This document shows, one piece after another, positions 4,801-22,430 of a DNA stretch of 23,168 bases. The position numbers and the translations under genes are program-made. This DNA comes from a virus: IMG/VR virus record IMGVR_UViG_3300007734_000488, positions 1 to 23,168 of that record; one strand, 5' to 3'. The notes below the pieces were generated by a model. It was not told the origin of the DNA. It did no database searches and saw nothing but the letters and a program-made list of their open reading frames with translations. How positions within the stretch are numbered: the stretch's first letter is position 1; each line of letters starts with the position of its first letter.

Positions 4801-5652
4801 CTATGCTGGGGTAAATCTAAGACCTTGATTACCGCCGCCTAATGTTAAACCTTGCGCCCCTGACCCTAAAGAATAATCTACTGCTGGCTGCGCTGCTGTT
4901 GCTTGGGGTCTGAGCATCGATGCCAAGGTCGCAGCATTGCCGATTCCTTGCAGGCCACCAGCCATGACGTTGGCAGCACCAATGTTTCCAGCACCCAAGG
5001 CTGATGCCCCGCCAATTGCAAGTTGACCAAGGTTGCCAGCAGTACCAACGCCGACATTGCCAATGTTGGTGGTAGCGGTCTGCCCAATGCCTGCCAGGTT
5101 AGACAACTTGTTGTAAATGTTGGTGCGCTCAGATTGGCCTTGGTTGAAGATGTTTTGTTGCTGAGACATATAGTTTGCCAAAGCATTTTGGTACGCATTG
5201 CCAGCGTAATCTTCTGCAAACTTTGTTCGTGCCAAATCAATGTTGCTGCCGCCACCGCCTGGATTCATAGCTTGCGCTGTTGCCCCCAAACCCTGCTGCT
5301 TCATAAACTCATAGTTTGGCGCTAGGTTGGATTTCAAATCCTCTGCGGTAAACGGTCGGTACGGGGCTTGTTTCTCAGTAAAGTACGGCAGCATATCTTG
5401 CAGGCTGGTCAACGCTCCTTGTCCAGCAGTGCGGTATGGCAGCTGTTGAGCATTGAGGATGTCAAACATCTCCCGCTGTCTAGCTGCTGCATCTTGAGTG
5501 GCAGCGTATTGAAGTTGCGCTCCTTCTTTAGCCGCTGATGCTTGCCCTTGCGAACCCATGTAGCCCAATACTGCGCCACCGCCAATTGCTAATGGCAAAG
5601 CATTTGCTGCCACAAATGTTCCTAATGATGAGGCTGCTGCAAGAAAAGTCAT
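4801..5652 (-). CDS. DNA transfer protein, P22 gp7 / P32-like
   Basis: 283 residues. A hydrophobic N-terminal segment (about 10-33, ANALPLAIGGGAVLGYMG) precedes an Ala/Gln-rich helical region (ASAAKEGAQLQYAATQDAAARQ) that matches the start of phage proteins often annotated as DNA transfer protein p32. The centre has the family-like stretch NALANYMSQQQNIFNQ followed by NIYNKLSNLAGIGQTA, and the C-terminus is a Gly/Ala/Asn-rich repeat-like region (about 190-245). Such proteins are packaged in the virion and help carry DNA across the envelope. The ATG overlaps the cupin gene's stop as ATGA. It heads the three-gene ejection set. Confidence 0.75.
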   Translation of the reverse strand: MTFLAAASSLGTFVAANALPLAIGGGAVLGYMGSQGQASAAKEGAQLQYAATQDAAARQREMFDILNAQQLPYRTAGQGALTSLQDMLPYFTEKQAPYRPFTAEDLKSNLAPNYEFMKQQGLGATAQAMNPGGGGSNIDLARTKFAEDYAGNAYQNALANYMSQQQNIFNQGQSERTNIYNKLSNLAGIGQTATTNIGNVGVGTAGNLGQLAIGGASALGAGNIGAANVMAGGLQGIGNAATLASMLRPQATAAQPAVDYSLGSGAQGLTLGGGNQGLRFTPA

Positions 5653-6077
5653 GTCAACTCCTTCATTTTGAGCTTATTTGCTGAGTCAAACAATGCTGCT
5701 GTGTCTGGCTCAATCAATTCAGCTTCAATGTCATCTAAATCTGTTTTGTCAGTGCGGTGAATCGTAACCCCGATTGCGTCAGTCACCGCCAAGGTTACCC
5801 GCTTGGTGCCGGGTTTGCTTTCCACCACATCACCAGCGTACAAGTGTTTCATGCCGCCCTCAGTCCAGGCAATTATTTCACCTTTGGCACAAAGAAAGAA
5901 ATGCGGCTCTTTATGCACCTTGCCAACAATTAGCGTCCCAGCTGGGCGGTAGACTTTCCGCAGGTACATCCCAGGCGAGAATGAGTGTTCGGTCACCAAC
6001 TCGAGTTGTGGCAACACTGACATCTCAGTTTGCAGGCGCTCGATCTGCTCTCTGGTGACTTGTGTGACCAGGCTCAT
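5649..6077 (-). CDS. Phage cupin-like protein
   Basis: 142 residues when started at 6077, where ATG overlaps the stop of the upstream fibre gene as ATGA; a second ATG four codons upstream at 6089 is possible but less well placed. Residues about 45-110 look like a single-domain cupin barrel: GTLIVGKVHKEPHFF followed by AKGE resembles motif 1 with His55 and His59 and a Glu, and GDVVESKPGTKR resembles motif 2. The helical N-terminus (about 7-22) and acidic C-terminus are outside the barrel. Stand-alone cupin-like proteins occur in the structural regions of many phages with no known activity. It lies between the fibre and the ejection genes, so a virion or assembly role is possible. Metal binding is inferred from the spaced histidines. 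Confidence 0.7.
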   Translation of the reverse strand: MSLVTQVTREQIERLQTEMSVLPQLELVTEHSFSPGMYLRKVYRPAGTLIVGKVHKEPHFFLCAKGEIIAWTEGGMKHLYAGDVVESKPGTKRVTLAVTDAIGVTIHRTDKTDLDDIEAELIEPDTAALFDSANKLKMKELT

Positions 6078-7024
6078 CCCACCACCCACGCCGTGCCATT
6101 GTCAAACACCGGGCAAACCACCGCACCACCGCCCACTGGAGCCGCTAGAAACGCTGGGGCCAAGGCATCAGTTACCCATGACCTGCGGCCTTGCGTACCA
6201 GCTGCTGGCAGAGTTGCCACGGTGTAGGCAGCGCCCAGGCCATTGCCACCATTTGCTACGGGAAGGATACCAGATACATTGGTTGTCAGGCTGGCAAAGG
6301 TGGTAGATGTTGTACCCGTCCCGCCGTTGGCTATTGGCAGGGTTCCAGTGACATCCGCTGTCAGAGACACCGCACCAAAGGTCGGCGCACCAGCAGCATT
6401 GCCGTGCAACACTGTTGTGGTCGTCCCCAAACTGCCCAATACCGTAGGCGCAGCGCCAGCGCCGCCCCCCAGCACTATCCTGCTTGCAGTCAACACGCCA
6501 GAGGAAGCCCAGGCTGTGCCACTAGAAAAGTACGGTACGCCGCCACTGGTTCCAGCAACAGTAAATGCTGGCGTGGTGGTTGGCGTAGCCACCGACACAA
6601 TACCGCCTGTCCAACTAACCGACGTTACCGTGCCCACAAACGCATCATTGCTGGTGATTGTGAAACTTGGGTAAGTCCCTGTTACAACCGTTGTGCCAGC
6701 TCCCGTTAGCACCACTGTTTGGTCTGGAAGGCTGTTGGTCACCGTGATGGTGCCTGCGCCATTGGTTACAGTAATGCCTGTGCTGGCGGTCAGGGTGTGC
6801 AGGGCGTAGCCCGTGCCGTTGCCAATCAACAGCTGCCCGTTAGTGGGAATTGTGGTCAACCCCGTACCGCCGCTGGCAACTGGCAATGCACCACTCAAAT
6901 TAGCGCTAATAAAACTGGGGTTCATCAACCACATCAACCATTCCTGGCTTGGCCTGCCCGTGATTGGGTCTAGAAACGTGCTAAACGGGATGTTGATGTT
7001 GCTGTTGGGGATAGCAGTAGCCAT
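6074..7024 (-). CDS. Repeat-bearing tail fibre protein in the tail-needle position
   Basis: 316 residues, Gly/Thr/Val-rich and predicted to be mostly beta. The N-terminus (about 12-36, FSTFLDPITGRPSQEWLMWL) looks like an attachment segment. Three copies of LP(V/I)A(S/N)GG(T/N)G, at about 47-55, 229-237 and 254-262, are the repeat of many phage fibres and probably form trimeric beta shafts. The C-terminal 45 residues (AAGTQGRRSWVTDA to TAWVVG) match a common fibre C-terminal module. It starts one base into the stop of the gp10-type gene (TAATG) and so sits where P22 encodes its tail needle gp26; I see no needle-like coiled coil here. Whether it plugs the tail or contacts the cell is not shown. 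Confidence 0.75.
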   Translation of the reverse strand: MATAIPNSNINIPFSTFLDPITGRPSQEWLMWLMNPSFISANLSGALPVASGGTGLTTIPTNGQLLIGNGTGYALHTLTASTGITVTNGAGTITVTNSLPDQTVVLTGAGTTVVTGTYPSFTITSNDAFVGTVTSVSWTGGIVSVATPTTTPAFTVAGTSGGVPYFSSGTAWASSGVLTASRIVLGGGAGAAPTVLGSLGTTTTVLHGNAAGAPTFGAVSLTADVTGTLPIANGGTGTTSTTFASLTTNVSGILPVANGGNGLGAAYTVATLPAAGTQGRRSWVTDALAPAFLAAPVGGGAVVCPVFDNGTAWVVG

Positions 7025-9326: not shown

Positions 9327-10295
9327 TTAACGGAAACCGCCATCCATGATAAACCCAGCATCTTTGGCTTTGCCAACCATCAGGGAATCAGGATAACGTG
9401 AAACTTGGGGGGGGCGCATATTGGTGCGCTTGATTGTGGCCTTGGCCTGGGCAGCAAATGCGTTGATCATGGCAATTGTTGTGGTGTTTGTCTTGCCGTA
9501 CATGGGCATCAACCGTTCTGCCAGGCACCACCGCAGCGCATTGTTGTAACCCTGCGGCAGCTGGATGGAGTCGGTGTAGCCATTGAACTGCCGAAAGATG
9601 GTCTGAGTAAACAGATGCAACTCACCTTGGCTCGGGTTGGGATAGACAAAGATTGTCCCCAGCAATTCGCTTGGCTGGTAGTAAATGGCCTTAGCCCACG
9701 GCCCATTCAGCTGCTTGATGCCAATGCTCTGGTATTCTTCTGCCCCCAAAATAGCCACAGGGTAGTCTAGGTAACCGCCAGCAATTGGACTGCCGCCCTG
9801 CATGGTAGCAATCCGCACAAAGGCGCTTTCAATGTTTAGGGGACGCTCATAGTAGCCTGCAATCGTGGTGCTGGGCACTGTTTGGTTGATGCTGACGGTG
9901 TAGGTGCCTGCCTCGTTCACATTGCCGCCTGCGCCCGTTGTAAAGCCCACAATGGTGGTGCCAGCAGTGATGCCAGAGCCAGACAAGGTTTGCCCAATGG
10001 CAATTGCGCCCGAGGTGATGGCAGTAACAGTCAACGTGGTGGCAGCAATTGAGCCTGTAAACGATGCACCTACCTGACCACCTGGGCCGATGGTGTACTG
10101 CACCTGGTTGGGAACCGTTGGAAAAATGATTTCAGTCTTATAGAAGACCATCATGTTTTCGTTTGACCACTGAGCGCACATATCGTTCAGCATATCGAAC
10201 GCATCTGCCGAATCAGCTGCCGCCGGGGTTTCACCAGCTGCTAGAGCGCCAACGTCTTTTAGCGCCCGGTTGATGATATCCTGGGGGGTTGTCAC
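9327..10295 (-). CDS. Tail adaptor / head-tail connector, P22 gp4-like, with inserted domain
   Basis: 322 residues, roughly double P22 gp4 (166). The N-terminus ([17 protein letters not shown], then [20 protein letters not shown] at about 32-51) and the later [32 protein letters not shown] and [14 protein letters not shown] are clear gp4-family features. This protein forms the ring that seals the portal exit and accepts gp10; P22 gp4 has also been reported to have peptidoglycan hydrolase activity. Residues about 73-148, Gly/Thr-rich with [18 protein letters not shown], interrupt the family pattern between YTIGPGGQ and RPLNIESAF and look like an inserted Ig-like/beta decoration domain. The start overlaps the 105-residue gene as ATGA. 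A run of eight C/G near 9410 encodes RPP near the C-terminus. Confidence 0.88.
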
Positions 10296-10609
10296 AGCCC
10301 TTGGCCCTGCGTAACGTAGACCACCGCGGTGCTGGATGCTGTAATGCCTGTAAAGAATGTTCCCGCAGGAAAACTCATTATTTCAACAGCGCCAGCTACC
10401 AGGGGGATAGCCGTGGTTGTCGATGCTGCTGTTACAGCCAACGCTGACGATGTTCCCGTGCCCAAAAACACAGTTACCGCGCCAACATTGACAAACCGAT
10501 AATTGGTGTTGACCACATTGGATGGGCCAGGCTGTACAGCTGTTGGGGCACTGGTTGCGCCCGTAAAGTTAACTGTCAGGCCAAGTGGTTGGAAGGCTTC
10601 TTGAGTCAT
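10292..10609 (-). CDS. Hypothetical small beta-rich structural protein
   Basis: 105 residues, rich in Thr, Val, Ala and Gly with no charged clusters, predicted all-beta ([26 protein letters not shown]). No family was recognised. It is coupled to the gp4-type gene (ATGA) and begins 9 bases after the stop of the HExxH gene, so it belongs to the late structural operon. The composition is that of small head or tail decoration proteins. The ribosome-binding site is weak (GAAAG), consistent with coupling to the upstream gene. Confidence 0.65.
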
Positions 10610-10618
10610 TTTTGTCTT

Positions 10619-10882
10619 TCAAGGTTGTTCAGCGGCTCGTGCCTCGACTTCGTAAGGGTTCATTTTATAACCGTAGCGCAGCAGCCACCAGGTGTACTTG
10701 ATGGCGTACAGCACCTTACCATCTCGCCGCATCTGTTCCAAGTGCATCATTTCGTGCCTAATCAACGCATCGTGTTGCTCAAAGCCGGGGGCCATGTAAA
10801 TCATATTCCAAAAGCTAGTCCATCCTTTGAACCCGCAAAGGTTCATGTAGAGCAGGATTGGGCCTTTGGCAGTGCGTATCAT
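10619..10882 (-). CDS. Miniature HExxH putative zinc metallopeptidase
   Basis: 87 residues. Residues 43-47 read HEMMH, a HExxH zinc-binding and catalytic motif, inside a helix (LIRHEMMHLEQ). About 30 residues later NPYEVEARA (75-83) supplies Glu78/Glu80 as possible third ligands, the same NPxExEA pattern that ends the catalytic core in several small HExxH proteins. Between them is an aromatic helix (YAIKYTWWLLRYGY). There is no signal peptide. The start overlaps the 78-residue gene as ATGA and the stop is 9 bases before the next gene, so it is expressed with tail and head-tail connector genes. A role in wall penetration or virion maturation would fit but is inferred only from position; activity is untested. 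Confidence 0.75.
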   Translation of the reverse strand: MIRTAKGPILLYMNLCGFKGWTSFWNMIYMAPGFEQHDALIRHEMMHLEQMRRDGKVLYAIKYTWWLLRYGYKMNPYEVEARAAEQP

Positions 10883-11115
10883 GGTTTGGCAGTAGCCTTG
10901 TACGCTTTAATTACGTCAGCCGTATGCGTTGCAGCACAAATAGCTTTTACTCGGGCATCTTCATTGCTGTAGTCATCACCAGGGGCAACGACATGACGGT
11001 GGAATGTGCCGCTGATCTGTTTGCCATCTTCCATGATGGCGGTTTTGGTGCGAACTTGCACGCTGCCATTTTCGACCACTTCAATGCGGTCAACTACGTT
11101 TACTTTCTCTAACAT
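10879..11115 (-). CDS. Conserved phage structural-region protein of unknown function
   Basis: 78 residues. The pattern VDRIEVVENGSVQVRTKTAI, MEDGKQIS and FHRHVVAPGDDYS is a conserved one found next to tail-fibre genes in many phages, where it is left as hypothetical or called a tail protein. A beta-rich first half is followed by a short helical C-terminus (DARVKAICAATHTADVIKAY). AGGAGAG about 6 bases before the ATG is the best ribosome-binding site in this stretch and suggests strong independent initiation, just downstream of a 7-bp hairpin at 11133-11152. The stop overlaps the HExxH gene start. Confidence 0.75.
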   Translation of the reverse strand: MLEKVNVVDRIEVVENGSVQVRTKTAIMEDGKQISGTFHRHVVAPGDDYSNEDARVKAICAATHTADVIKAYKATAKP

Positions 11116-11169: not shown

Positions 11170-12081
11170 TCACGGAACTGTTCCATCAACTATCAATCCA
11201 GTTGCTGCTAAAGCGGTAAGTAAACTTGCAAGAGCAACATTACCTCCACGGGAACCCGTTACTGTTTGTTGCGCTGCTCCTGCTGAACCAAAAAACCCAA
11301 ATGCTCCATTGCTGAAAGTCATGTAAGTTGTTCCAGAACCACCAATTTGTTTAAGTTTTGCTTGTAAGGAATTGCTTTGCTCAATGGTAAATTCAAAACC
11401 ACCAGCAGCTCGTTGCTTAATGCTAATACCTTGGTTAAATTGTGCAGTAATTGCGGGGAACAACAATTGTGGAATTGTCCCTGCGTAAATCTGCATTACA
11501 CTATCAAAAGCAGGCGCACCGCTGGCAGTGGTTGCGTAGCTTAATAAAAGACGATCTGACGTTTCTTCAAATGTAAGATTAAACCGATTACCAGCAGGGT
11601 CTGCATTAAGTGTAGACCGTTGAAAAAGCAAATCGGTGGAACCCCCATTGGTCGCTGGCTGCGCTTGGATAAAATGGCTATCAGTTGTAAACGCCAATCC
11701 TCTTAGGAAATAAGTAGCAGTGCCTGGTTGACTGTTTTGAATACCAATAATATTGTTATTCGTAACTGCATCAACAATCCAAGTCAAAACATTACTTTGC
11801 ACGCTGTATCGTAATCTACCAGCAAAAGCATTACTAACATTGTAAGTCGTTGCGCCAATCTTGATAAACGTGTTGCCTGCTGCTTGAAAACAATCTGTCC
11901 AAACATCTGGTGATGCGTCAAGCAAATAGGTTCCACTAGGAATAAAGTAGCGAGTATTTACCGCCCTAGCTAATGTAAATGCAACGGTATCATTGGTAAC
12001 ACCATCACCTACAGCGCCAAAATCTAAAACATTTGGTGGCGCACCACCAACCATTGAATAAGAAACTTTTGTAAGAGACAT
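11170..12081 (-). CDS. Short tail spike / fibre tip protein
   Basis: 303 residues. The N-terminus (SLTKVSYSMV, then NVLDFGAVGDGVTNDT at about 17-32, and YFIPSGTYLL at about 45-54) is the pectate-lyase-type beta-helix entry of tail spikes. P22-type spikes are about 600 residues or more, so the helix here is short or replaced. The C-terminus (SAGAAQQTVTGSRGGNVALA onward to LIVDGTVP) is a common terminal module of phage fibres. It probably binds, and perhaps cleaves, a surface polysaccharide, but no catalytic residues can be assigned. It is the last of the three-gene fibre cassette. Its DNA looks more A/T-rich than the terminase-portal region, as expected for a swapped host-range gene. Confidence 0.75.
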   Translation of the reverse strand: MSLTKVSYSMVGGAPPNVLDFGAVGDGVTNDTVAFTLARAVNTRYFIPSGTYLLDASPDVWTDCFQAAGNTFIKIGATTYNVSNAFAGRLRYSVQSNVLTWIVDAVTNNNIIGIQNSQPGTATYFLRGLAFTTDSHFIQAQPATNGGSTDLLFQRSTLNADPAGNRFNLTFEETSDRLLLSYATTASGAPAFDSVMQIYAGTIPQLLFPAITAQFNQGISIKQRAAGGFEFTIEQSNSLQAKLKQIGGSGTTYMTFSNGAFGFFGSAGAAQQTVTGSRGGNVALASLLTALAATGLIVDGTVP

Positions 12082-12090
12082 TTTAAGTGC

Positions 12091-12642
12091 CTATACTTTG
12101 TATGAAATAGAACCAAATATCACAGTATTATTTCCTATTACTGCGGCGGGTACAGTTGTAGATGTAGCAGCAAGGGCTAATCCATTTAATGTAAGAGTGG
12201 TGGCGCTGGCTGAATTATAAAACGTAAGAAATGTCATGTTAGTTGCAAGTGCTTCAAACAAACCAACGCAGCCTGCTTGTTCGTAATAAATAGAAGATGA
12301 TGTAAACGGTAGGCCACTGATTACGCTAGTGCTTCCAGTTCCAATAAGCGTTATGTGCAATCGAAACTGACAGTGAACTACATTTCCCACCTTGGTATAA
12401 CTACCATTATTGGCAGCATTGTATGTAGCAGTTCCACCAACACTAGGCGTCCAAGTACCTTGCTCATAGTCATTAAGCAACTCGCTGGTCATGCCAGGAG
12501 CAGATGGGTCAATAGAAAAGTCAATGCCCTTGCCAGATGTGCCGATGACTAGGTTGCCGGTGGACAGGTTAACGTTACCAGCAAAAGTAATTGGCGTTGC
12601 AATCTGACTAGCGTTGATAACTGAATTTGCTACTTTTAACAT
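12091..12642 (-). CDS. Tail fibre segment protein
   Basis: 183 residues. The N-terminal pattern NSVINASQIATPITFAGNVN, NLVIGTSGKGIDFS and SELLNDYEQGTWTP (about 28-66), with the following GSYTKVGNVVHCQF, is a well-known module of phage fibres and collar-like proteins. The rest is beta-rich (LTLNGLALAATST). It lies 9 bases from the adaptor-like gene upstream and 9 bases from the spike gene downstream. An AGGA element precedes the ATG. Probably a trimer that joins the adaptor to the spike or binds the receptor itself; this is inferred from family and order. Confidence 0.75.
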   Translation of the reverse strand: MLKVANSVINASQIATPITFAGNVNLSTGNLVIGTSGKGIDFSIDPSAPGMTSELLNDYEQGTWTPSVGGTATYNAANNGSYTKVGNVVHCQFRLHITLIGTGSTSVISGLPFTSSSIYYEQAGCVGLFEALATNMTFLTFYNSASATTLTLNGLALAATSTTVPAAVIGNNTVIFGSISYKV

Positions 12643-12650
12643 GGTAATTC

Positions 12651-13109
12651 CTAATCGTAAACAACTTCAATAATGGATGTGTATGGTGGTGCTTGGCTAA
12701 ATGTCACCGTGCCGCTGGTGACCGTATATGTGTTGCGGTTTTGATACACACCGTTGATGTAGATAGCGGTGAAACCGTTGACTACCGAGAAGGCAGTTGT
12801 TGTTCCGTCACCCGTAGCATTGACGCCAAAGGTGCTGCCGTTGATGTTGTCTACCGTCCAAATTAAGACGCTGGCGCTGGTGTACAGGGCAAACTTGTAG
12901 ATGGCTGCGCCAAGCCACACATTGGCCTCGCCACGGCTGTCCAAGACGATGGGGTTGGTGTTGGCAGTGCTGCCTGTGGAATCGGTGTAAGAGGCTAGTG
13001 GCGTGGTTGTGCCAGCAGCGTAGGTGTACAGCAGCCCACCCGACAATGGTGCGCCGTTCAGATCAAAGAATTGCAGCTTGGGCGTAGGGGATAAGGATGT
13101 GGTAGCCAT
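12651..13109 (-). CDS. Head-binding-like tail fibre adaptor
   Basis: 152 residues. Residues about 10-75 (PKLQFFDLNGAPLSGGLLYT, YAAGTTTPLASYTD, NPIVLDSRGEANVWL) follow the pattern of the N-terminal head-binding domain of P22-like tail spikes: FxDxxGxPLxxG, then P-x-x-x-Y-x-D, then a PI-x-LDSxG turn. The C-terminal 60 residues (FTAIYINGVYQNRNTYTV to SIIEVVYD) are a small beta domain that often follows such anchors. With no receptor-binding part of its own, it most likely anchors the next two proteins to the virion. It is the first gene after the terminator at 13122-13156 and has no clear ribosome-binding site. Confidence 0.72.
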   Translation of the reverse strand: MATTSLSPTPKLQFFDLNGAPLSGGLLYTYAAGTTTPLASYTDSTGSTANTNPIVLDSRGEANVWLGAAIYKFALYTSASVLIWTVDNINGSTFGVNATGDGTTTAFSVVNGFTAIYINGVYQNRNTYTVTSGTVTFSQAPPYTSIIEVVYD

Positions 13110-20015: not shown

Positions 20016-20080
20016 CAAATTTTCTCAATCAATGCCCAGATTACTAAAACAACAATGACAACAAGGACAATTTTTATCAT
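20015..20080 (-). CDS. Candidate 21-residue single-membrane-segment peptide
   Basis: The ATG overlaps the stop of the polyvalent-type gene as ATGA. The peptide is almost wholly hydrophobic (IKIVLVVIVVLVIWAL) and ends IEKI, so it should form one membrane helix with a short charged end. The precise coupling supports expression, but such a short frame could arise by chance. Function unknown. Confidence 0.4.
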   Translation of the reverse strand: MIKIVLVVIVVLVIWALIEKI

Positions 20081-21954
20081 TGGATAAAAGAGTTTATGCT
20101 GTTTTGCTGCTGGTCTTGCATCCCGGCACCCAGGCCAATGCCACCAATCGGTGCAGCGGTGAACAGCGGCTGGCCTTTCTTGACACCGCCACGCATCTCT
20201 GGGCTGATGTCAATGTAACGAACTGTTGCGTTGGTGTCTGGTGTCTGGTAGTAACTTCTGCCAGCTTTTTCAATTGTTCCTTTTTTGCCAATCGTTGTCT
20301 CACCCGTCTTGGCGTTGTACTTCTTGCCTTGCTTGGCTAAAAATGCAGGGTAAATTTCATCGTAATAGGCTTTCATGCCTTCACCGCCAATGGTCAGGTC
20401 ATCGCCTTTGATGGTTCCAGTTCTTTGCTCGGCAATCTGCTTTGCCATTGATTTACCCAAAACTTCCTCTACCGTCTTGCCTTGAGCTGGGCCTTCAATA
20501 AACTTACCATTTTTAACTTTCCCATCAAATGTATTTGATCCACCTTTATAGGCCTTAATCTTTATTTCATCAGGACGAATAGATGATCCTTCTTGGCTAG
20601 ATAAGCTATCAAATTTTGCTCTTTCAGTGCCAGTCATGTCTCTAAATGTTTTTTGACGCAATGCTTTAAGTTCGGCAGCCTCAATATCAGTTAACTTTTG
20701 ACCAGTCTGGAAAACAATCTCATCCACATTCTGGCGCAACTCATTGGCGTATCGCTCAATTTGCTGCTTACCCGTTGTCAGGCCAACCCTGTCATAGCCA
20801 TTGTCAGCAGCGTACTTCAGCGCACGTTTCAGCGCCAGTTGATGCCAGGTGTCCTTGAAGGGTGCGTCTGGGACGCCTTTTTGCATAATTGGTGGTAATG
20901 CATCAATTTCAGCTTTAATCTCTGCTGGAATAGGTTTATTTGCTTCCATATATGGCCAAGCAAGTTTTTCCAATTCTTTTCTACGTTCCTCAACTTTTGG
21001 ATTTTCATACCCCTTTTCCCGACCAGCCTGATGCCAATCGGATTGAATCTCCTCAATCAATAGCATTTTCTTGCCATCAGCATCCACTCGGTCATTGACC
21101 CTCATATGCGCTAGGATGTTGGGTTCGTCAAAGTGGGATGACTTGTAAATAGGCGCTTCACTAATTTGCCTCTGTAAAGATGTATTTTCATTTTGTAATC
21201 TGCTTATCTCACTGCGAATTTCATTTGTCCCACTGGTGCCGTACATTTCTTGACGCAATGCTTTAATTCTTTCCTCGTTTGCAATTTGAGCAGCCCTTGG
21301 CTTGTCCCATTGATTTGGCAACGTTAGCAATATCTCACGGTAGTTCTCACCACCAGGGAGTTGGTATTGACCATATTTTGTTGGATTAGGTACGCCAAGT
21401 CCTTTTAAATCAAGTGCTTCTGCCCTTGTATTAAACATTTCAGACTCTAAGAAATACTTGTTTGCAAGTTCTTTATTGCCAGCCGCTTGCGCTCTTTGAG
21501 CATTTCTAATAGCAACTTCAGCACCGCTATACAAACTATCAACAGTGCTTTGATCTCTGATATTTTGCAACTTCAATAATTCATTAAATTTTTCTTCACC
21601 GAAAGTAGGCGCATCTATTGGATGTTCTTTAAGCTGGCTTAATTCATTCTCAAGAGTTGCTAAACGAATCTTGTCGTAAGATGGTGCCTCACCCAACCTA
21701 ACCTCTTGCACATCCACTCGATTGCCAGCAATGTAGTCTTGCACCTCTTGCCGGGTCACATTAGGCTTGCCCTTCAGATAGTCATCCAGCCCCAACCAGG
21801 ACAGCTCCTCCTTCTTAACGTCTTGGCCCTTCATCAGATCATTGAGGAACGATTCGCCAGTGCCGGACTTGCGGGGAATGTTTAATGTTGCTTGCTCGGC
21901 TGCCGAGTAGAACCCCAACGGGGACACTGGTGCTTGCGGCTTGATTGGCACCAA
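20077..21954 (-). CDS. Polyvalent-type phage protein, C-terminal 625 residues (probably frameshifted)
   Basis: 625 residues from a TTG (21954) or GTG (21951); no ATG is available. It opens directly with SPLGFYSAAEQATLNIPR, then KKEELSWLGLDDYLKG and VTRQEVQDYIA (about 48-75), a module that in related phage proteins is usually internal. Further conserved blocks are YGQYQLPGGENYREILLTLP (194-213), FDEPNILAHMRVNDR (275-289), IEEIQSDWHQ (300-309) and APFKDTWHQLALKRALKYAA (364-383). This block order is found in large multi-domain 'polyvalent' proteins of phages and conjugative elements, some thought to be packaged and delivered into the cell. Enzyme activity is not assigned. It overlaps the 182-residue frame by 73 bases in another phase. 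Confidence 0.75.
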   Translation of the reverse strand: MVPIKPQAPVSPLGFYSAAEQATLNIPRKSGTGESFLNDLMKGQDVKKEELSWLGLDDYLKGKPNVTRQEVQDYIAGNRVDVQEVRLGEAPSYDKIRLATLENELSQLKEHPIDAPTFGEEKFNELLKLQNIRDQSTVDSLYSGAEVAIRNAQRAQAAGNKELANKYFLESEMFNTRAEALDLKGLGVPNPTKYGQYQLPGGENYREILLTLPNQWDKPRAAQIANEERIKALRQEMYGTSGTNEIRSEISRLQNENTSLQRQISEAPIYKSSHFDEPNILAHMRVNDRVDADGKKMLLIEEIQSDWHQAGREKGYENPKVEERRKELEKLAWPYMEANKPIPAEIKAEIDALPPIMQKGVPDAPFKDTWHQLALKRALKYAADNGYDRVGLTTGKQQIERYANELRQNVDEIVFQTGQKLTDIEAAELKALRQKTFRDMTGTERAKFDSLSSQEGSSIRPDEIKIKAYKGGSNTFDGKVKNGKFIEGPAQGKTVEEVLGKSMAKQIAEQRTGTIKGDDLTIGGEGMKAYYDEIYPAFLAKQGKKYNAKTGETTIGKKGTIEKAGRSYYQTPDTNATVRYIDISPEMRGGVKKGQPLFTAAPIGGIGLGAGMQDQQQNSINSFIQ

Positions 21955-22430
21955 GCATCCCCAGACTCACCTTCCACCACACTAGGCATCAACCCCTGCC
22001 GCTGCAGGTAACCCTCGCCCATACGCACTGCCGTTGGCCCTAGCGCCCTGGCACCAGCTGCTACTGCTCTGGCTGCTGGCATTGGGTTCAAAGGCACAAA
22101 GGCACCTGCTTGCCCAGCAACTTCACCAACCCTGGACGTTGGCTTGAGTGGCAAATTCTCAAGATAGTATTCGGAGCCATAGGGCAGCTGCGGTGCTGGC
22201 TCGTACTGCGTTTCACCGAACATCTCAGTCGGCATGGGACTTCTACCCATGAAATTCAATGTGTCAGGCAACAAGCCAGCCAATCCTGCTACACGCCCTC
22301 GGGTAACATCTAAAGGCACATTGGCTGATGCTTCTGGGTCTTGGAACCTGCGCTTGGGCTTCATCTGCGGGAAAAACCCCGTTGCTGCCCTATCATTTGG
22401 CAAAAACGAACTAAGCAGATTGTCAGCCAT
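21882..22430 (-). pseudogene. N-terminal piece of the polyvalent-type protein (probably frameshifted)
   Basis: 182 residues. The N-terminus (LLSSFLPNDRAATGFFPQMK) and the stretch YYLENLPLKPTSRVGEVAGQ, followed by an Ala/Pro/Val-rich hydrophobic region (about 128-165), look like the start of the same large polyvalent protein. Up to about residue 176 (MPSVVEGESG) it reads naturally; the last 30 residues are Trp/Cys/Arg/His-rich and out of character. At that place the 625-residue frame takes over in the -1 phase. It overlaps the upstream gene by 8 bases. I read it as one gene broken by an indel, a sequencing error or a programmed shift; two separate coupled genes remain possible. Confidence 0.55.

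Follow-up and report, generated by a model that had tools for sequence, protein, structure and literature searches.

What does an 87-codon gene with a zinc-protease signature do in the spike region of a P22-type phage? The question is raised by a viral DNA stretch of 23,168 nucleotides (IMG/VR record IMGVR_UViG_3300007734_000488, positions 1 to 23,168), hereafter called the window. It is a P22-type phage fragment with terminases, portal, scaffold, P22-type coat, a spike cassette, an adaptor, head-closure and ejection-type proteins, the small terminase, scaffold and ejection roles being assigned from position and composition. The cassette encodes, in order, the 152-aa, the variable 183-aa, the tailspike-type, the 78-aa, the HExxH and the 105-aa proteins (Table 1), which places the HExxH slot between the tailspike-type gene and the 105-aa gene that precedes the head-tail adaptor. 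The same cassette occupies two genome positions, the coat-adaptor interval in window-type phages and the portal-scaffold interval in others, and therefore it moves as a unit. An earlier, sequence-only reading had assigned the HExxH gene to a tail/connector operon; the operon is indeed structural, and the place of the gene can be refined to a variable slot directly behind tailspike/fibre genes.

Table 1. Features of the HExxH gene and of the spike cassette around it (window coordinates)
Feature	Position	Strand	Remarks
87-aa HExxH protein gene, DUF4157-like mini-gluzincin candidate	10619..10882	-	ATG start, 87 codons and stop
HEMMH, codons 43-47; two His as putative zinc ligands and putative catalytic Glu	10742..10756	-	H43, E44 and H47 never vary across 66 distinct genes or in the remote relatives aligned
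NPYEVEA, codons 75-81; E78 likely third zinc ligand, E80 likewise invariant	10640..10660	-	Conservation of E78 and E80
ATGA stop/start overlap (4 bases) of the HExxH gene start with the 78-aa gene stop	10879..10882	-	No Shine-Dalgarno site
152-aa protein, conserved cassette opener, DUF4183 at C-terminus	12651..13109	-	
183-aa variable spike-module protein	12091..12642	-	Mostly 40-66% identity, neighbours ~90%
Tailspike-type protein, pectate-lyase-like N-terminus, varies between relatives	11170..12081	-	
78-aa gene upstream of the HExxH gene, phrog_6228 (unknown function)	10879..11115	-	
105-aa small protein at the end of the slot; the portable spike cassette ends with this gene	10292..10609	-	
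Head-tail adaptor (Ad3 / SU10 adaptor-like)	9327..10295	-	

Viral contigs contain several hundred relatives of the 152-aa protein that opens the cassette, and in loci L158 and L159 a long fibre has a closely similar sequence as its N-terminus, suggesting a common anchor for exchangeable spikes. Elsewhere in the window, a cupin-like 146-aa protein (PF07883, below cut-off) is encoded at 5649-6089 between fibre-type and ejection-type genes. On the minus strand, the overlapping ORFs 20077-21954 and 21882-22430 apparently belong to a single protein that a frame change near 21954 has divided, since ahead of the TTG of the second ORF the VEGESGDA of the first is continued in the other frame; the change could be a real frameshift, a programmed frameshift or a sequencing error.

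The minus-strand ORF 10882-10619 translates as MIRTAKGPILLYMNLCGFKGWTSFWNMIYMAPGFEQHDALIRHEMMHLEQMRRDGKVLYAIKYTWWLLRYGYKMNPYEVEARAAEQP, and both its length of 87 residues and the residue numbers given in the earlier reading (His43, Glu44, His47, with NPYEVEA downstream) were as stated. From the composition of this proteome, 0.0003 HExxH motifs would be expected by chance in an ORF of such size, and the 87-aa protein was the sole carrier among the 22 window proteins scanned. E78 is preferred as the third ligand on the gluzincin ExxA pattern, with E80 as the alternative. Inspection by eye revealed no evident signal peptide in the 87-aa protein.

No Shine-Dalgarno site precedes the HExxH gene, whereas most surrounding ORFs have one, and among the family genes Shine-Dalgarno-like sites were present before 3 of 77 starts. 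The ATGA overlap was discarded as evidence of coupling, since the second codon (Ile/Thr) forces ATGA; the coupling argument was confined to how rare Shine-Dalgarno sites are and to genuine overlaps with upstream ORFs. Because a ribosome site of its own is mostly missing and the start lies at or beside the upstream stop, the 87-aa protein may be made late and in step with the preceding spike-module gene, its translation perhaps proceeding by re-initiation after that gene. The earlier description of the gene as coupled to virion genes holds as far as the 4-base overlap is concerned; the neighbour that it overlaps is the small phrog_6228 protein, which is no known virion gene.

Viral contigs searched for relatives yielded 74 close loci with 74-100% identity over full-length matches. 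H43, E44, H47, E78 and E80 were invariant in 66 of 66 distinct close homologue genes, in which the codons of several invariant residues, such as 43 and 44, carried synonymous changes. The median dN/dS was 0.11, corresponding to purifying selection; ORF 10882-10619 belongs to a real gene family. Among more distant relatives from phages and bacteria, those read and aligned likewise kept the HExxH motif and both glutamates. Most of these were retrieved by patterns not using HExxH, which gave 19 bacterial loci and additional phage loci; some patterns contained the glutamates, and for the relatives found with them only the conservation of HExxH is independent. None of the homologues had lost His43, Glu44 or His47.

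A cultured homologue was found in Pseudoalteromonas phage J2-1 (46% identity, ATN93410.1), and remoter ones in phage C48C1 and Parabacteroides phages. The proposed lack of a P22 counterpart agrees with a tblastn search in which all 8 matches among 50,697 phage records were to other phages. The window protein matched PHROG 37302 over its full length (E 2.8e-24), as did 39 of 40 family members; PHROGs records no function for this group. In NCBIfam the window protein had no match and the family gave noise only, as did a PDB sequence search with the single protein as query. Relatives of ~111 aa occur in Bacteroidota (L084-L086); one of them, L084, lies among ordinary chromosomal genes, and therefore the family is not restricted to phages. 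Flavobacterial relatives with an N-terminal hydrophobic segment adjoin a packaging-type ATPase (phrog_6891) in L092 and a lysozyme-like endolysin in L087, contexts that are possibly integrated tailless phages.

AlphaFold2, run with 40 aligned relatives, predicted a compact fold (pLDDT 90.4, pTM 0.77) with a short beta edge, a helix at 38-54 carrying HExxH, a helix at 56-70 and a helix at 76-84 carrying E78 and E80. The predicted fold is zincin-like, and thus not of a kind expected to hold the three HExxH residues apart. Among predicted viral structures (BFVD), the second match was a phage protein named DUF4157 (TM 0.80/0.85, rmsd 1.7, probability 1.0), followed by SprT-like and IrrE-like proteins; the DUF4157, SprT-like and IrrE-like models had probabilities of 0.87-1.0. 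Foldseek against the PDB, with models of the phage protein and of a bacterial relative, returned no significant E-values for this very small protein; the more plausible of the weak matches were gluzincins, e.g. BlaR1 (TMq 0.51), and lend weak support.

Among named families, a link emerged to Pfam eCIS_core (DUF4157, PF13699), with which the protein shares the HExxHxxQ core and the preceding strand. PF13699 matched 17 of 40 family members, the bacterial ones with E-values down to 8e-11. The window protein was not among them, being unlisted at E<=10 and below the 22-bit gathering threshold, and the phage relatives scored 13-14 bits in 4 of 10 sampled records against this 22-bit cut-off. When the phage profile (A4) was aligned by hhalign to a bacterial DUF4157-type profile (A5), which includes L096 (42 bits) and L080 (27.5 bits), both passing PF13699, the two matched at 99.6% (E 6e-24) across the catalytic core and NPYEVEAR, linking the protein by homology to proteins above the Pfam threshold. 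Unlike eCIS members, it is a stand-alone 87-aa protein of tailed phages, and its gene lies in a tailed-phage structural operon; neither sheath genes nor eCIS genes were seen in the window. Judged by sequence, it is a distant DUF4157 relative and no member by Pfam's rule.

The VgrG2b C-terminal effector domain is a solved gluzincin with H935, E936, H939 and E983, a Glu being the third ligand; its toxicity in the periplasm depends on an intact site, and a tail-spike-like protein carries it (PMC6899460). Its crystal structure (6h56) was matched by the bacterial profile (E 3.6e-4); a mixed profile reached only E 0.15, and the phage-only profile gave no match. The domain has in common with the window protein the HExxH motif and the downstream Glu, but is larger, with 44 residues from H939 to E983 as against 31 in the window protein. 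PhageMetallopep (PF18894), likewise a phage HExxH protein, matched weakly, at 13.5 bits over residues 35-80, below its gathering threshold of 23.7. The minigluzincins and the M56 BlaR1 domain share the idea of a minimal gluzincin, BlaR1 being among the better PDB fold matches; BlaR1 differs in being a membrane receptor protease and gave no significant sequence or Foldseek E-value.

As in clan MA(E) gluzincins, HExxH lies on a helix with invariant His and Glu, and a downstream Glu is predicted on a following helix; a fold like that of known zincins was matched in BFVD, the PDB matches not being significant. In all testable features of sequence and predicted fold, the 87-aa protein behaves as a gluzincin, and its relatives and modelled structure mark it as a putative minimal gluzincin-type zinc peptidase. 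In the probable active site, H43 and H47 would bind zinc together with E78 (or E80), and E44 would serve as general base in peptide cleavage. The sequence-only reading had seen a small putative HExxH peptidase with a complete set of possible ligands, and residue conservation and the zincin-like predicted fold bear this out. It is very hard to believe that the motif is a chance HExxH in a small ORF with no enzyme function: the small size speaks for this and nothing further does, and set against it are the low expectation given above, the strict conservation across phage and bacterial homologues and the zincin-like fold matches.

The gene contexts of the family were compared. Of 74 non-redundant loci, at least 57 had an upstream gene that could be recognised as a spike or fibre from its N-terminal pattern alone, and profiles found further fibres (T7-type in L172, gp53-like in L175). 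By our count, about ten of sixteen unrelated lineages are fibre-linked. Spikes lie next to the HExxH gene in L160, L162 and L170, and fibres near it in L163 and L165; a tail collar fibre stands beside it in the P2-like Mucispirillum prophage L079, a fibre occurs in L081, and the J2-1 homologue adjoins a tail protein gene. A 4-base overlap with the upstream spike gene was frequent (e.g. L162, L170, L172, L158 and L159). In L165, the gene upstream of the HExxH gene and overlapping it (5423-6001) encodes a 2OG-Fe(II) oxygenase (phrog_81), an accessory enzyme in the fibre region.

There were exceptions to this linkage. In L167 the gene lies within a lysis cassette, with a holin-like phrog_3427 gene two genes downstream, and L171 is similar; in L177 its neighbours on either side are a head-tail adaptor and a scaffold-like gene, in C48C1 it is surrounded by auxiliary genes and in PM93P1 it stands beside the terminase, and L084 is chromosomal. 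In L128, L143 and L170 it stands between the fibres and an M15-type endolysin, the latter read by eye. Phages in general use the interval from fibres to lysis genes as a hot spot for accessory genes, so position by itself is no proof of a tail role.

Relatives were also gathered via the 105-aa neighbour, so that the choice of query would not introduce bias. The HExxH gene was present in 13 of 28 such loci and absent from 15, the remaining order being largely kept. In several gene-minus loci (L185, L191, L204, L205 type), the last codons of the gene (GGCACGAGCCGCTGAA...) survive in the gap that separates the stop of the 78-aa gene from the start of the 105-aa gene. The junction differs in L189. 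In L190 the gene is reduced to its first codons fused to its last, and the gene upstream is a 116-aa one of the kind whose end also stands before the intact gene in L054. The remnants and the differing junctions of L189 and L190 indicate that the gene was lost at least three times, and a reading of the gene-minus relatives as the ancestral empty site was rejected for most of them on the same remnants and the L190 join. The last codons (10619-10645 and the same stretch in relatives) show little synonymous variation; they may have a second use, at the start of the 105-aa gene or as a junction for recombination. An immunity-gene role of the 105-aa neighbour was dropped, as this gene persists where the peptidase gene is deleted.

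These losses bear on the suggestion in the earlier reading that the protein matures a virion protein, which they weaken: the gene is dispensable and absent from about half of the near-identical relatives, mostly with deletion scars, which argues against an essential virion-maturation role, and near-identical tailspikes are found with and without it. A narrower form, a maturation protease or folding helper for the upstream tailspike or fibre, placed like a fibre-assembly chaperone, would suit a gene that directly follows those for spikes and often overlaps them by 4 bases. We consider it unlikely, given that the upstream spikes have no common C-terminus, that about half of the close relatives do without the gene, and that a 429-aa spike is nearly the same in L046, which has the gene, and in L191, which lacks it. 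The latter pair indicates no spike-specific dependence there, and spike-specific maturation was dropped on this ground. Slightly less probable still is a non-catalytic DUF4157-like adaptor with a purely structural zinc, which would hold or load proteins onto the tail tip. A chaperone function has been proposed for DUF4157, and the growth inhibition by one effector was independent of the metalloprotease motif (PMC11297309); the small DUF4157 protein Sle2 of Streptomyces binds components of the spike complex of its contractile injection system as well as cargo (PMC13277306). Against an adaptor, Glu44 is as invariant as the His ligands, and a purely structural site would tolerate its loss.

Penetration of the envelope or action after injection, which the sequence-only reading had also proposed, are both possible. 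Our tentative preference, held at somewhat less than even confidence, is for an accessory, tail-linked mini-gluzincin that would act on the host envelope during entry. The product would work with the tail tip or spikes, or be delivered with them, and might, less certainly than it would bind zinc, cut a host envelope protein and so aid entry on some hosts. The step to tail tip and envelope is suggested by the recurring fibre linkage and by the behaviour of relatives, namely VgrG2b, Sle2 and the DUF4157 proteins that mark contractile injection systems (PMC8213781). An entry role would also explain why the gene moves along with spike modules and disappears where it is of no use. Action in the cytoplasm, in host takeover or lysis, ranks close behind and is nearly as likely: a late-expressed accessory peptidase, parked in the hot spot behind the fibre genes, could serve host takeover, counter-defence or lysis inside the infected cell. 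IrrE/ImmA-like proteins, to which the model is similar in BFVD, cleave cytoplasmic regulators. The repeated deletion of a dispensable gene, the lysis setting of L167 and L171, the fibre-endolysin intervals, the auxiliary genes around the C48C1 homologue and the export signal not seen by eye all suit such a peptidase; set against it, lysis neighbours occur only in a minority, and the gene adjoins fibres or spikes in about ten unrelated lineages, a closer association than a generic hot spot predicts. The more specific form of the entry reading, in which the minimal DUF4157-like zinc peptidase is an exchangeable attachment of the receptor-binding module and acts at the tail tip on host envelope proteins, is speculative, and we would give it only a modest chance.

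The unnamed PHROG 37302 group and phage proteins labelled DUF4157 were already known, and a description of the phage gene was not found in the searchable literature. Apparently undescribed there are the strictly kept site in so small a protein that stands alone, the recurrent placement of its gene after those for receptor binding, and the repeated losses of this gene. What DUF4157 does in contractile injection systems has been called an unsolved question (PMC8213781, PMC11297309), and here an 87-residue stand-alone relative with an intact, conserved site is gained and lost by phages behind their tailspikes. Near-identical phage pairs with and without the gene, together with the cultured J2-1 homologue, make its function directly testable. 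If the protein is tail-borne, it would add a protease to the phage-entry toolkit and give an injection-system domain a link to phages. If the tail-tip reading is true, this peptidase would be an old companion of the tail tip, common to phage tails and to the bacterial injection systems derived from tails (eCIS, T6SS), and its catalytic role could be studied here in its smallest form.
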